DNA of 34,277 bases from Deltaproteobacteria bacterium (GTDB lineage: Bacteria > Desulfobacterota > Syntrophia > Syntrophales > JACQWR01), in contig JAPLJV010000007.1 in assembly GCA_026388415.1 (NCBI GenBank), positions 1-34,277 on the forward strand. Reading direction: 5' to 3'. The translations under genes were made by a program, and so were the position numbers. Positions 25,728-33,231 of this stretch are shown piece by piece (the first letter of the stretch is position 1; each line of letters begins with the position of its first letter). A model generated the notes under the pieces. It had not been told where the DNA came from, ran no database searches, and was given only the letters and a program-made list of their open reading frames with translations.

Positions 25728-25804
25728 GCGCCTGTAGCTCAGCTGGATAGAGCAACGGATTTCTAATCCGTCGGTCCCGGGTTCGAATCCCTGCAGGCGT
25801 ACCA
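25728..25804 (+). tRNA. tRNA-Arg (anticodon UCU), CCA encoded
   Basis: Acceptor GCGCCTG (25728-25734) pairs with CAGGCGT (25794-25800), with one G-T pair. The D arm has AGCTCAGCTGGATAGAGC. The anticodon stem ACGGA/TCCGT encloses TTTCTAA, anticodon TCT. The T arm GGTTCGAATCC is standard. Discriminator A and CCA are at 25801-25804. It marks the left border of the AT-rich accessory region. Confidence 0.96.
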
Positions 25805-28104: not shown

Positions 28105-28566
28105 CTACTTTACAGTGTACCCACGACCATCAAGACAGGCACTCTCCGCACGTCGATAGTTTGCACGTTGGGTTTCCGGCAGGGATTTGATAATAACAGT
28201 CCATTCCTCCATACTAACTTTCCGGGGCTCGTGCCAAGTCTGACTCACAGCCCAAGTGTGGCATTCGTAACGATCCTTCGCCTGTTGTTCTTCACTCTGG
28301 CCTTGGCGCGGATAAACAAAGATTCGTTCAGTAGACGACGGTGTTGCAGATGAGGCTGTTTGAAAATATACCGGAGGCTGTTCGCGGATGATCAGTGGGG
28401 GAGGTTCATAATATGGCCTATGATAATAAGGCGCCAGAACGGCCACACCTCCTATTACCGCCCAAGGCAACCACCAACCACCATGTTCGCCTCTTGCTTC
28501 ACTTGGCAATGGGTTGAGACAGATGACCATTGTCAGAATAAGCACCGCACAAACAATTTTCTTCAT
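28105..28566 (-). CDS. small secreted protein of unknown function
   Basis: A 153-residue protein with a clear signal peptide (MKKIVCAVLILTMVICLNPL, cleavage near SEA-R). A Gly/Trp/Tyr/Pro-rich stretch follows (GGWWLPWAVIGG, YYHRPYYEPPP), then a linker and a conserved-looking C-terminal part with QQAKDRYECHTWAVSQT and a final ACLDGRGYTVK. The two cysteines of the C-terminal part may form a disulfide in the periplasm. I have seen the DRYECHxWAVxQTG and RGY endings in outer-membrane-associated proteins of Geobacter-like bacteria, but no function is known. AGAGG precedes the ATG. It is flanked by repeat copies A and B. Confidence 0.75.
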   Translation of the reverse strand: MKKIVCAVLILTMVICLNPLPSEARGEHGGWWLPWAVIGGVAVLAPYYHRPYYEPPPLIIREQPPVYFQTASSATPSSTERIFVYPRQGQSEEQQAKDRYECHTWAVSQTWHEPRKVSMEEWTVIIKSLPETQRANYRRAESACLDGRGYTVK

Positions 28567-28834
28567 ATTTTACCTCTTTATCTGCTTCGGCAAGTGTGTC
28601 ACTGATGTTTATACTCCCCTATTCAACTTGTTTCTAACAATAAGCAATGAGTGCACCTAATAAGGGAAAACAACATAAACATAGGGAATCATATCACATA
28701 TCGTGATTATACTTTTTTGTAATTGGATTCTTTTCATTAAAATTGATCGGATATGTGTAGCGATTATGATACAGTTGCATGTATCGGGATCTCCCCAGCC
28801 GGTATGTTGCATAAATAATGTTGACTCAGCATAA

Positions 28835-29089: not shown

Positions 29090-29425
29090 TTAAGATACCG
29101 CTTGTTCCTTCTTTTTCTTTTTTCCCTTGCCCTCTACAGGGGCTTCCGGTGCTTTTTTCTCCTTACGGTCTTCTGGATCTTTTTTGAGGGCGGCTTTTTC
29201 CGCCTTTGTCTTTGCCAGTACTTCCGTCTTCTCTTCGGAGCTGGCAATCGTCTTAAGTCTGGCATTTAGGGAATCAATATTTGCCCGCAATTTTTTTAAG
29301 ATAGTATCTTTCTTGATCTTGGCAGATTCGATCCCTTTTTCAGACAGGAATGACATCCGGTCTTTCAGTTGTCGTTCGAAATATGCCTTTCGTTCCATTT
29401 GTGCTGGCTTCCGATTTGATCCCAT
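29090..29425 (-). CDS. Lys-rich coiled-coil protein of unknown function
   Basis: A 111-residue protein behind GGAGGGG. The N-terminal 70 residues are an amphipathic helix or coiled coil (RKAYFERQLKDRMSFLSEKG, then KLRANIDSLNARLKTI). The C-terminal 40 are Lys/Glu/Ala-rich and end in a lysine run, like a histone H1-type disordered tail. The opening QMERKAYFERQLKDR resembles conserved hypothetical proteins of Geobacter-type bacteria as I remember them. A nucleic-acid- or partner-binding role is possible but unproven. Confidence 0.7.
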   Translation of the reverse strand: MGSNRKPAQMERKAYFERQLKDRMSFLSEKGIESAKIKKDTILKKLRANIDSLNARLKTIASSEEKTEVLAKTKAEKAALKKDPEDRKEKKAPEAPVEGKGKKKKKEQAVS

Positions 29426-29830
29426 ATTTTCCCCTCCCTCTCAGATACACTTGTTTTTCCTCGGCAGCCTATAGACCATGAAAAGCTTGCTCTTCCCCGC
29501 CGCATAGATGAATAATGGGGATACCCCTATCAGTGATCGCGTAGAAAAGCCATTACATTTAAATTAGCTCTTGCCTATACTGAAAAGCATCTTAGCAATC
29601 CCATTGGCTATTCCGCCCTGCCTGTCAGGTCAAATAATCCGTTTCTTCCCGCCATACAGTTTGATTCCGCCCACTACCAATTTCATACTTGCACCGCTTT
29701 TACCCGCCAATTTAGTTTCCGACAGTGTTTTTCCCGCAATCCCTAAATGTATTTTATTCCGATCTTCGATCAGCTGCTGAACAAATTATTGAGAACCAAA
29801 TTATATCTAAATCAGAAAGGAGATAGCGAC
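29426..29830. other. 405-base gap with a possible decayed gene on the minus strand
   Basis: On the minus strand, about 29783 down to 29622, a frame without start reads FVQQLIEDRNKIHLGIAGKT and then a Gly/Lys-rich end (KLVVGGIKLYGGKKRII). It looks protein-like but I cannot assign it, and the upstream frame is closed by a stop. A trace of the gene-border repeat is at 29462-29477. The rest shows nothing I can support. Confidence 0.35.
29782..29804 (+). promoter_or_regulatory. direct repeat ahead of the ribbon-helix-helix operon, possible operator
   Basis: CAAATTAT occurs twice (29782-29789 and 29797-29804), 15 bases apart, directly before the ribosome-binding site of the first ribbon-helix-helix gene. 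Ribbon-helix-helix proteins usually bind short repeated half-sites in their own promoters, so autoregulation here is a reasonable guess. No clear -35/-10 pair is visible. Confidence 0.3.
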
Positions 29831-30007
29831 ATGAAAAAGAAAATCTATATCAGGCCGGTTTGTATCATGCTTAGCCAGGAGATGTATGAACAAGTTGCCA
29901 AACTGACGGAGCAAAGAGAAATCAGCATGTCAGATTACATTCGGGTGGCACTTCATGACAAATTGGCCGGAGAACAGCAATCAGCAAACGGGAGGATTAA
30001 ACCATGA
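29831..30007 (+). CDS. ribbon-helix-helix protein 1 of a three-gene operon
   Basis: A 58-residue protein with AAGGAG nine bases before the ATG. After a basic start (MKKKIYIRP) comes a beta-strand, helix, turn, helix pattern (VCIMLSQEMYEQVAKLTEQR, then ISMSDYIRVALHDKL) characteristic of CopG/Arc/MetJ DNA-binding proteins, which act as dimers of dimers. The S(M/x)SDYIR turn is the family's usual second-helix start. Its stop overlaps the next start (ATGA). No toxin gene follows directly, so it is not an ordinary toxin-antitoxin pair. AT-rich surroundings suggest recent acquisition. Confidence 0.75.
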   Translation: MKKKIYIRPVCIMLSQEMYEQVAKLTEQREISMSDYIRVALHDKLAGEQQSANGRIKP

Positions 30008-30186
30008 GAAACAGAACATTTCATACCTCGATAAATCTACTCATTGAAGCAGGGCTTTATCAAAGGCTCAGATGGGCCGCCAAACAAACAAAGACCAGTA
30101 TGTCAAAGATTGTTCGTGAAGGCATAAAGCTCATACTGGCCCAGATTGAAAAAGAAATTGATATCGTTATGGGAGGGCATAAATGA
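30004..30186 (+). CDS. ribbon-helix-helix-like protein 2
   Basis: A 60-residue protein starting four bases inside the previous gene's stop and overlapping the next start the same way. It aligns with protein 1 in layout: strand (FHTSINLLI), helix (EAGLYQRLRWAAKQT), turn SMSK, helix (IVREGIKLILAQIEKEI). It carries more basic residues than protein 1. The tight overlaps imply equal, coupled synthesis of the three products, perhaps as hetero-oligomers. Partner and target are unknown. Confidence 0.7.
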   Translation: MRNRTFHTSINLLIEAGLYQRLRWAAKQTKTSMSKIVREGIKLILAQIEKEIDIVMGGHK

Positions 30187-30560
30187 TGAACGCACCAGTA
30201 ACCAATAAACCAGTGATGCCAGGAAACAAAGTTATTGCCAAACCAAACACGGCCAAGCCAGCCAATAATCAGCAGCTCATTAGTCAGCTTAGACAGGAGA
30301 TTAAAACCCTGAATAAAACGATCAAGGATATTCAAAAGAAACCGGATCTGCAGATCGTAAGTGTCATGATGCCGCGCCAATTGCTGTCCAAGGCTAATGC
30401 CCTTCTATTAGCCTATTCACACAGTATGGGAGAGTTATACGGCATATCTGACCTTATCTGTGATGCCGTGGAGCTTTATGTATGGGGAGATGAAGAAAAC
30501 CAGCGATTAGAGAAAGAGCAACAGGAAGCAGAGCAGGCCAAGGCTGAATCGGAGAAGTAG
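30183..30560 (+). CDS. ribbon-helix-helix-like protein 3 with N-terminal extension and coiled coil
   Basis: A 125-residue protein. A Pro/Lys/Asn-rich N-terminus (about 1-28) leads to a coiled coil (QLISQLRQEIKTLNKTIKDI). A third copy of the same small fold follows: strand (LQIVSVMMP), helix (RQLLSKANALLLAYSH), SMGE turn, then DLICDAVELYVWG. It ends in a charged Glu/Gln/Lys helix. Its start overlaps the preceding stop by four bases. The extra coiled coil could be the interaction arm of a complex made with proteins 1 and 2. No family recognised. Plasmid-partition or mobilisation accessory proteins have similar architecture, but no ATPase or relaxase is present. Confidence 0.6.
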   Translation: MMNAPVTNKPVMPGNKVIAKPNTAKPANNQQLISQLRQEIKTLNKTIKDIQKKPDLQIVSVMMPRQLLSKANALLLAYSHSMGELYGISDLICDAVELYVWGDEENQRLEKEQQEAEQAKAESEK

Positions 30561-31016
30561 AAGGTGAAGTGATGGATGGCGACTGAGATTGATACCACCT
30601 TTCACCCCGTAATGAACGGTGTGCTATCAAGGGAAATGGGTATGTGCCGAAAATTCGTTTCACCTCCTACTAATCAATGGTTTTTGGTCTGAAAATCAAC
30701 GGATGATTACCACTTGTAATCAGTTTTATAATCATCAATTAAATCAGCGGTGCGACTCGAAACATTTTTTTGCTGCCATAGAAACAGCCGTCAGTCAAGA
30801 GGGTGTGGCATTGCAGATTTAATCCGAGTAAGCCGCCGAGGTTTGACGGCAGTGACTGCGCCGAGGATTGGGTCATTTTCAGGCACTGAATGCTAGAGAA
30901 ACACTTTCAGTGATTATTTTAACTTTCTATTGACATTTCAATACGATGCGTATAGAAAGAAGCCAATCGATTTTTCGACCACATTTGCAAAAAATAAAAT
31001 AAAATGGAGTCGTCCT
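30561..31016. other. 456-base non-coding stretch before the ACT-fhs operon
   Basis: No convincing gene. The inverted words GCCGTCA (30787-30793) and TGACGGC (30844-30850) lie around a short gap, and the phrase CGCCGAGG occurs twice (about 30836 and 30859). The stretch ends in the promoter-like region at 30930. The upstream half is AT-rich like the accessory region, and the border to the core genome is probably within this stretch. Confidence 0.4.
30930..30956 (+). promoter_or_regulatory. possible sigma-70 promoter for the ACT-fhs operon
   Basis: TTGACA at 30930-30935 and TATAGA at 30951-30956, with a 15-base spacer that is shorter than ideal. The predicted start would lie about 50 bases before the ATG at 31017. 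Confidence 0.4.
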
Positions 31017-31556
31017 ATGAGATCATATGTTGTTATTTCCTCCATGGGGCCGGATCGTCCTGGTCTGGCCAAAGAAATCGCTGAATTTTTTACCGCCCGC
31101 GGCGTTAATATCGAACGGTCCCGTGGTTGTGTGTTGGGCAATGAATTCGGCATGATCATTCTCACATCGGGAAAGACTGACGACATCGAGCGTCTGATTA
31201 AAGATCTGGACAGCCTTCGCAAAAAAACAAAGCTGGAGATTTACGTTCGGAAAACCAAAGCGCCCAGCCATCGCGACACATTGCCGTCGATTCCCTACAA
31301 GCTCATTGCCACATCCATCGATCATCCTGGGATCATCCATCAAATCTGCAAATCACTCCAACTGCGGGGAGTCAACATCGAAGACATATCAACCAATGTG
31401 GATAATAATCCCTTTACGGGAGCTAATGTGTTCCATATGGCCTGCTACTTTTCTCTGCCGCCGGCTGTTAAAATTATAGATCTAAAAAACGATTTTAACC
31501 GCATCGGTGATGAATATAATATTGATATCCGGTTCGACGCTGTAATCAGTAAGTAG
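31017..31556 (+). CDS. double-ACT-domain regulator (GcvR-like)
   Basis: A 179-residue protein from the ATG at 31017, which has GGAG seven bases upstream; a longer frame from 30930 adds 29 residues inside the promoter region. Two ACT domains are seen: SYVVISSMGPDRPGLAKEIAEFF with RGVNIERSRG, and KLIATSIDHPGIIHQICKSL with RGVNIEDIST. This tandem is that of GcvR, which in E. coli restrains the glycine-cleavage operon activator GcvA when glycine is low, and of related amino-acid sensors. The gene ends four bases before fhs, so sensing of glycine or another amino acid to tune C1-folate flux is a sensible inference. Confidence 0.85.
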   Translation: MRSYVVISSMGPDRPGLAKEIAEFFTARGVNIERSRGCVLGNEFGMIILTSGKTDDIERLIKDLDSLRKKTKLEIYVRKTKAPSHRDTLPSIPYKLIATSIDHPGIIHQICKSLQLRGVNIEDISTNVDNNPFTGANVFHMACYFSLPPAVKIIDLKNDFNRIGDEYNIDIRFDAVISK

Positions 31557-31560
31557 CGCT

Positions 31561-33231
31561 ATGAAGAAAACCAAACAACACAACCCTGAAAAAAACCTGC
31601 GGTCCATTGTTGACATTGCCTCAATGCTCGGGTTGAAGGAAAATGATCTGGAATTATACGGCCGTTATAAGGCCAAAGTAAGGCTGGAAGTAATCCGGCG
31701 ATTTTCACGCAGGAACAATTCATCTTTGATTCTTGTGTCGGCCATGACACCGACCCCTGCCGGTGAAGGAAAGACCACCGTGTCCATCGGGCTTGCGCAG
31801 GCTCTGGCTAAAATCGGCAAGTCCACCATAGTGGCTTTGAGAGAACCATCACTGGGGCCTGTTTTCGGCATAAAAGGCGGGGCCACCGGCGGCGGACTTT
31901 CCCGTGTTCATCCGGTCGATGACATTAATCTCCATTTCACAAACGACTTTCCAGCAGTGGAAAGTGCGCACAATTTGCTCTCCGCTATCGTGGACAATTC
32001 CATTTTTCACGGCAATCATTTAAATATCGATCCGCGTAAAATCACCTGGCGTAGGGTTATAGATATGAATGACCGCTCACTTCGGGATATCGTCATAGGT
32101 CTGGGCGGTTCCACCAATGGAGTACCCCGGGAAACCGGATTTGATATTGTTCCCTCCAGTGAAATTATGGCAATTCTCTGCCTTTCGCGCTCCTATGAAG
32201 AATTGAAAGACAAGATACGCAAGATTCTGGTGAGCTTTACCTATGACGACTATCCGGTGATTGCCGGCGACCTAAAAGTGGAAGGAGCGGTCACGGCACT
32301 CTTGAAATATGCGTTACTACCCAATCTTGTGCAGACCACCGAAGGCGTTCCGGCCATTATACACGGCGGTCCATTTGCCAACATTGCCCAGGGTACCAAC
32401 AGTATCATGGGCACGGACCTGGCGCTTCGTCTGGCGGATTATGTGGTAACCGAAGCCGGATTTGGCTTTGATCTCGGCGCAGAGAAGTATTTCGACATCG
32501 TCGCGCCCTACGGCAATTTTCATCCCCGGATTGTCGTTTTGGTTGCTACCGTTCGTGCGCTGAAATATCACGCGGGCATTGCGCGAAAAGAACTGAACGA
32601 TCCCAACCCCATTATGGCCGTGCTAGGAATGGCAAATCTGCGCAAGCACTATGAAAATATCGACAAATTCAACGTCCCCTGCATTGTTGCTTTAAACCGG
32701 TTTCCTTCAGACACGGATGAAGAAATTAAAGCGGTTGTGGAAGCTGCGGAAAACGAAGGGATGAACATTGCCCCAGCGGATATCTTTAGACTGGGAGGCG
32801 AGGGCGGTTTGGAGCTTGCAGAAAAGACTGTCCGGCTGATTGCCGAAGCCAAAGGGACATTTAAGCCGCTCTATGACTGGAAACTGCCGGTGGAAGATAA
32901 AATATTTAAAGTTGCGAGCGAAATCTACGGCGCTGTTTCCATTGATTACCAGCCGCAGGCTAGGCGCAATCTCGATATGATCAAAAAAATCGGCTACGAT
33001 AAACTGCCGGTCTGTATTGCCAAGACCCAGCAATCGCTATCCGACAACCCGAGCCTTTTGGGTCTTCCCAGCAACTTTATCGTTACCGTTCGGGAAATTA
33101 AAATCGCTTCCGGCGCGGGCTTTTTGATTCCCATTACCGGAGAAATCCTCCGGATGCCCGGCCTTTCCAAAGTGCCAGCCGCCTACAACATTAATATTGA
33201 CCATACCGGAAATATAACGGGAATTGTATAG
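31561..33231 (+). CDS. fhs: formate--tetrahydrofolate ligase
   Basis: A 556-residue protein of the full family length. It has the nucleotide-binding loop TPTPAGEGKTT (63-73), EPSLGPVFGIKGGATGGG (the formate/folate region), INLHFTNDF, a long stretch ending GGPFANIAQGTNSI, and the C-terminal KTQQSLSDNP and AGFLIPITGEILRMPGL. It makes 10-formyl-THF from formate, THF and ATP, the entry of the methyl branch of the Wood-Ljungdahl pathway; run backwards it can yield formate and ATP. In a syntroph or acetogen-like anaerobe either use is possible. It is coupled to the ACT-domain regulator upstream. Confidence 0.97.
   Translation: MKKTKQHNPEKNLRSIVDIASMLGLKENDLELYGRYKAKVRLEVIRRFSRRNNSSLILVSAMTPTPAGEGKTTVSIGLAQALAKIGKSTIVALREPSLGPVFGIKGGATGGGLSRVHPVDDINLHFTNDFPAVESAHNLLSAIVDNSIFHGNHLNIDPRKITWRRVIDMNDRSLRDIVIGLGGSTNGVPRETGFDIVPSSEIMAILCLSRSYEELKDKIRKILVSFTYDDYPVIAGDLKVEGAVTALLKYALLPNLVQTTEGVPAIIHGGPFANIAQGTNSIMGTDLALRLADYVVTEAGFGFDLGAEKYFDIVAPYGNFHPRIVVLVATVRALKYHAGIARKELNDPNPIMAVLGMANLRKHYENIDKFNVPCIVALNRFPSDTDEEIKAVVEAAENEGMNIAPADIFRLGGEGGLELAEKTVRLIAEAKGTFKPLYDWKLPVEDKIFKVASEIYGAVSIDYQPQARRNLDMIKKIGYDKLPVCIAKTQQSLSDNPSLLGLPSNFIVTVREIKIASGAGFLIPITGEILRMPGLSKVPAAYNINIDHTGNITGIV

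Follow-up and report, generated by a model that had tools for sequence, protein, structure and literature searches.

Do three small overlapping genes in the window, as we call the whole 34,277-nucleotide stretch of delta-proteobacterial DNA analyzed here, encode an unusual DNA-binding complex, or do they belong to a system of a known kind? A sequence-only reading had described them as three ribbon-helix-helix (RHH)-like proteins, strictly coupled in translation and possibly forming a three-subunit complex, with no toxin, relaxase, ParA or other usual partner nearby. We examined their coding status, folds, relatives, leader sequences and genomic surroundings.

Three small genes with their own translation signals

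The three ORFs, here called P1, P2 and P3, lie on the same strand and overlap at ATGA joints at 30004-30007 and 30183-30186 (Table 1), exactly where the sequence-only reading had placed them. In comparisons of the window with homologues, nonsynonymous differences were far fewer than synonymous ones for P1, P2 and P3 (pN 0.18-0.35 versus pS 0.64-0.89), and all three therefore look like real genes under purifying selection. Translational coupling is possible, but calling it strict was an overstatement, because a separate Shine-Dalgarno-like site precedes every gene (AAAGGAG for P1, GGGAGG for both P2 and P3). Nor are the overlaps conserved: among relatives, the spacing may be a gap of 11 or an overlap of 11, or a gene for a 315-aa protein may stand between P1 and P2. 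P3 may start at its second ATG (30186), since the homologue in genome G154, which is 40% identical, begins MNVP. The G+C content of the operon is 40-45%, against 50.7% for the whole window, and both flanks are similar to the operon.

Table 1. Features of the operon, its leader and its surroundings in the window.
Feature	Position	Strand	Basis or remark
P1, CopG/ORF56-like ribbon-helix-helix protein, 58 aa	29831..30007	+	profile matches
P2, second ribbon-helix-helix protein, 60 aa	30004..30186	+	profile match, hhalign, AlphaFold model
P3, 125 aa; an N-terminal tail, then a coiled coil (~residues 27-51) and a C-terminal part that is probably RHH-like	30183..30560	+	
GAACAAAT, motif common to P1-family leaders; candidate operator or promoter element	29779..29786	+	
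Second CAAATTAT copy, local to this locus	29797..29804	+	absent there in relatives
AAAGGAG, P1 ribosome-binding site	29816..29822	+	sequence; kept across leaders
Small, probably exported protein	28105..28566	-	62% identity to G154 C67:18596-19078
Right flank, ACT-domain protein	31017..31556	+	Pfam ACT_6
Right flank, formate-tetrahydrofolate ligase-like protein	31561..33231	+	read from sequence

P1 and P2 are ribbon-helix-helix proteins

Profile comparisons clearly assign both P1 and P2 to the RHH fold: in Pfam, P1 matched RHH_1 (25.9 bits against a cut-off of 20.5, 8.9e-6) and P2 matched RHH_3 (23.5 bits against 21.6, 5.5e-5). The two are related to each other (hhalign, 96.5%). The best named family for P1 in NCBIfam was ORF56 plasmid copy control (NF041793, 4.5e-6); at 26.7 bits the match lies under the curated cut-off of 50, so P1 falls short of membership in that family. 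The top solved structure for the P1 profile was likewise ORF56 (PDB 2k9i, 3.3e-5). The AlphaFold model of P2 (pLDDT 78.5) drew mostly RHH structures in Foldseek, including ORF56 and CopG, although for a chain this short none of the E-values reached significance.

The proposal of three RHH-like proteins held for P1 and P2, but P3 found no significant relative in Pfam, PHROG, NCBIfam or PDB. The C-terminal half of P3 aligned weakly with the P1 profile (hhalign probability 70.5%, pair E 3.9e-5), with six residues inserted between the helices, and scored 0.3% against the P2 profile. Its structural model, built on a two-sequence alignment and of low confidence (pLDDT 61), has helices at 27-51, 65-82 and 88-124 and no strand. 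The first of these helices agrees with the coiled coil that had been predicted for the third protein, and P3 is probably an RHH-like domain behind a coiled coil. The SM(S/G) element thought to be common to all three proteins did not extend to P3: because 'GISDLICDAVELY', and not 'HSMGELY', aligns with the P1 segment 'ISMSDYIRVAL' in hhalign, the SMG of P3 is a coincidental resemblance. Residues ~64-100 of P3 also matched proteins of ~310 aa in many relatives, which we treated as chance resemblance; the one member of that group that was read through (L002) is presumably a quinolinate synthase (NadA)-like protein.

P1 is the constant member of a variable operon

The P1-P2-P3 set is rare and patchy. 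P2 was present in 3 of 155 genomes of the class, the source genome yielded no second P1, and viral contigs, plasmids and phages held no relative of the proteins searched; we found no earlier description of the three-gene set in the literature and databases searched. Whether the three genes co-occur elsewhere had been posed as a test of the sequence-only reading. They do stand together again in G154, in the same order, interrupted between P1 and P2-P3 by the 315-aa gene and a hairpin leader (Table 2).

Table 2. Gene order at loci with close relatives of P1.
Locus	Gene order
Window locus	P1-P2-P3
G154 contig 67	P1-315aa-P2-P3-DUF1016_N-like
G061	P1-P2-radical-SAM/DUF5131-like
JAGVVH010000547.1	P1-P2-DUF1016_N-like
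JAKPTX010000037.1	P1-107aa-P2
G074, P1 without P2	P1-60-aa gene-radical-SAM-like gene
G023, P1 without P2	P1-DUF1016_N-like gene

P1 is the constant part (7/7 loci), joined by P2 at five and by P3 at two. P2 was never found without P1 (5/5 loci) and lacks P3 at three, while P1 stands without P2 and P3 in G074 and G023, as do its distant relatives in the three replication operons described below. The cargo behind the closer P1 relatives is swapped from locus to locus, being a DUF1016_N-like protein with a coiled coil, a DUF5131/radical-SAM-like protein, or unknown. Because P1 so often occurs alone, an obligate three-subunit complex is disfavored, and the separation of P1 from P2-P3 in G154 also speaks against it. 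That P1, P2 and P3 assemble on DNA into a single heteromeric RHH complex, in which the P3 coiled coil would link dimers, and travel as a repressor-plus-architecture module exchanged between islands, is a reading to which we give little credence. P2 and/or P3 might also heterodimerize with P1 and relieve its repression; the kinship of P2 with P1 and its unfailing company would suit such antirepressors, but P1 also occurs without P2, and we assign the idea a low probability.

The varying cargo bears as well on whether P1 and P2 could be orphan antitoxins that have lost their toxins, or that neutralize a toxin within the cargo. RHH domains are common in antitoxins, and type II RHH antitoxins (CopASO, ParD, RelB-like), which share the fold, were the top weak Foldseek matches of P2. 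However, the matches to antitoxin models (CopG_antitoxin, RelB-like) were weak and all below cut-off, and PADLOC returned no match for P2 or P3 and a single weak model for P1. The operon contains no toxin gene, and the next genes at the various loci encode primases, DUF1016_N-like or radical-SAM-like proteins rather than small toxins. We regard an antitoxin role as very improbable.

Several further observations concern these loci. JAGVVH010000547.1 and JAKPTX010000037.1 belong to MAGs titled Bacteroidetes or Bacteroidota, which may reflect misbinning or transfer between phyla; between L029 and L030, from MAGs so titled, the P1 and P2 genes are up to 93% identical. On the minus strand of L024, two near-identical hairpin leaders (AGGCCGCCTGGAAATCTAATAATCCTAGCGGCCTT, then a ribosome-binding site; ~1028-1085 and ~1670-1730) precede P2 and the DUF1016_N-like gene of G154, and a different hairpin (AAGGTCATCAC...GTGATGACCTT) lies ahead of P2 at 718-790 of L030. 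These hairpins may serve as attenuators or as points at which cargo genes are exchanged. The P1-operon loci L026, L030, L046 and L047 have neighbors in common, which we take to be SemiSWEET transporter-, DUF1232-type- and XRE regulator-like genes, and this suggests one common kind of island.

A motif is shared by the leaders of P1-family genes

The octamer GAACAAAT was exact in six of nine P1-family leaders and present with at most one mismatch in all nine, mostly ~50-63 nt upstream of the start codon, distant replication operons included. The leader on contig 39 of G074 has TAACAAAT and that of G023 has GAACAAAA, the latter nearer the start codon, each with one mismatch; the P1 leader of G154 carries GAACATAA at the equivalent position (two mismatches) and GATCAAAT further downstream. 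When the leaders were shuffled 40 times with dinucleotides preserved, the best 8-mer was exact in at most four of nine leaders and within one mismatch in six to eight (eight once). Because the nine leaders have a common ancestry, this comparison overstates the significance and is not a clean probability. Within 90 nt upstream of 15 unrelated RHH genes of the class, exact GAACAAAT was absent (0/15).

The motif alone is too short for genome-wide specificity. A pattern search of 155 genomes gave 30 readable loci, four of them P1-type, and as a stand-alone finder GAACAAAT followed by a ribosome-binding site and ATGAA(A/G) returned mostly chance matches. The most similar-looking of the pattern matches (G072 C1) belongs to unrelated genes; the one full-pattern match in the source genome is the locus studied here.

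In the window, CAAATTAT occurs twice in the leader (29782-29789 and 29797-29804), and this direct repeat had been put forward as a candidate operator. The leader does contain the conserved GAACAAAT, and with it the first CAAATTAT; because only that copy is kept in relatives, the repeat is half conserved motif and half local.

The same motif could be a promoter or activator site of the islands, in which case P1 and P2 would target DNA elsewhere and the operon would not be autorepressed. The fairly steady distance from motif to start codon and the AT-rich stretch downstream fit a promoter too, and we saw no clear inverted repeat common to the leaders. Against this, no sigma-70-type site was recognized in the leader, and wherever an exact GAACAAAT in the fetched P1 loci has a ribosome-binding site and an ORF behind it, the gene is P1-type. 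We consider the promoter explanation rather unlikely.

Centromere binders that work with ParA, such as ParG and omega, are typically small RHH proteins with extra tails, and the operon resembles them, as well as TraY and NikA, in its RHH fold (probable for P3) with extra tails. P2 and P3 might be imagined as centromere-binding proteins like ParG or omega in a complex that partitions or organizes DNA, where the coiled coil of P3 would bridge sites; ParG is among the weak Foldseek matches of P2, and P3 has a long predicted helix. However, no ParA-type ATPase was recognized at 28-33 kb of the window or beside the relatives examined, nor any other NTPase in the operon or next to those relatives, and no adjacent transfer gene is present. 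Reading the ORFs beside the operon and its relatives revealed no relaxase. The leader has no iteron array, and most loci lack P3. Such a complex seems improbable.

Distant P1 relatives precede replication genes

Three distant relatives of P1 (23-26% identical to it) lie directly before replication genes, within 20 nt of the primase/helicase gene or overlapping it. On G154 contig 67, the gene behind (30823-32730) combines Prim-Pol, PriCT_1 and DnaB_C domains; on contig 11 of G074 and contig 6 of G154, D5_N + DUF5906 genes follow. The earlier statement that no usual partner is present thus stands for the window locus but not for the family.

This arrangement recalls the Sulfolobus plasmid pRN1, where ORF56 acts as a repressor and in copy control and shares a transcript with ORF904, the replication protein (PMC4234260). 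ORF56 (NF041793; PDB 2k9i/3ft7), the best named match of P1, is a small RHH protein like it and is encoded by the first gene of its operon, directly ahead of a Prim-Pol protein, as is the distant P1 relative in G154. P1 of the window differs in its score under the curated cut-off, its bacterial host and the two additional small genes behind it, and is not directly upstream of a replication gene. A second parallel is CopG of the pMV158 family, a short RHH repressor that heads a replication operon and binds its own leader. P1 is likewise short, RHH and first in its operon, but RepB is absent here, and GAACAAAT is a candidate operator known from leader sequences.

The locus may be a remnant of a mobile island

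The 43-kb contig of G154 (contig 67) that holds P1, P2 and P3 also bears an integrase-like gene at 38.1 kb, the Prim-Pol operon, an exonuclease-like protein and what we take to be a UvrD-like helicase; it is, or carries, an integrated island. Besides P1-P2-P3, it has in common with the window the gene for the small, probably exported protein (Table 1), with a conserved leader, and this gene is possibly part of the same import. That leader (28567-28770, minus strand) is strongly conserved with L052 18390-18595 of G154 (for example, TATAATCACGATATGTGATWTGATWCCCTATG), has no Rfam family, and is a possible regulatory element or promoter. Left of the operon, 29090-29425 on the minus strand encodes a lysine- and glutamate-rich 111-aa protein without a Pfam match.

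The right flank of the window, where the ACT gene is followed by a presumed formate-tetrahydrofolate ligase-like gene, has matches to the ACT gene and to what comes after it in three genomes (G008, G006 and G003), none of which has P1-P3 in the 1.5 kb upstream of the ACT gene. No integrase, att repeat or replicase was recognized in the window, so it is the shared genes that lead us to infer that the locus is a fragment or late remnant of an island. Rfam identified two tRNAs and nothing else; tRNA-Arg (25728-25804) was considered as an attachment site and set aside, there being no repeat of it downstream.

P1 as a candidate self-regulated switch

Given its fold, family and place as first gene, its relatives in replication operons and the conserved leader element, the economical reading is that P1 is an autorepressor of the CopG/ORF56 type heading a variable mobile-island operon, here with P2 and P3 and no replicase; we put this at about an even chance. 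As a dimeric RHH protein, P1 would bind its own leader around GAACAAAT (29779) and the AT-rich sequence that follows, and would thereby limit transcription of the operon. What points to such binding and repression of its own promoter is the shared leader motif. The P1 family would then provide the switch gene of mobile-island operons in this bacterial class: where a primase/helicase gene comes next, replication of the element after its excision would be under the control of the P1-type protein, and other copies would control accessory cargo. P2 and P3 would most likely serve a former or partly degraded island as co-regulators or as proteins of DNA architecture, adding binding specificity or oligomerization, with the coiled coil of P3 providing the latter.

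The three-protein set is a local variant of the P1 switch-gene family, built from parts of known type. Judged from sequence comparisons, the operon is most likely a switch that regulates itself in the manner of plasmid copy control, carried on mobile islands of anaerobic delta-proteobacteria. The family to which it belongs, CopG/ORF56-like and with a shared leader motif, appears to be undescribed in the mobile islands of syntrophic delta-proteobacteria. Since one kind of switch stands before replication genes at some loci and before accessory cargo at others, it may offer a way to test how these islands govern themselves.
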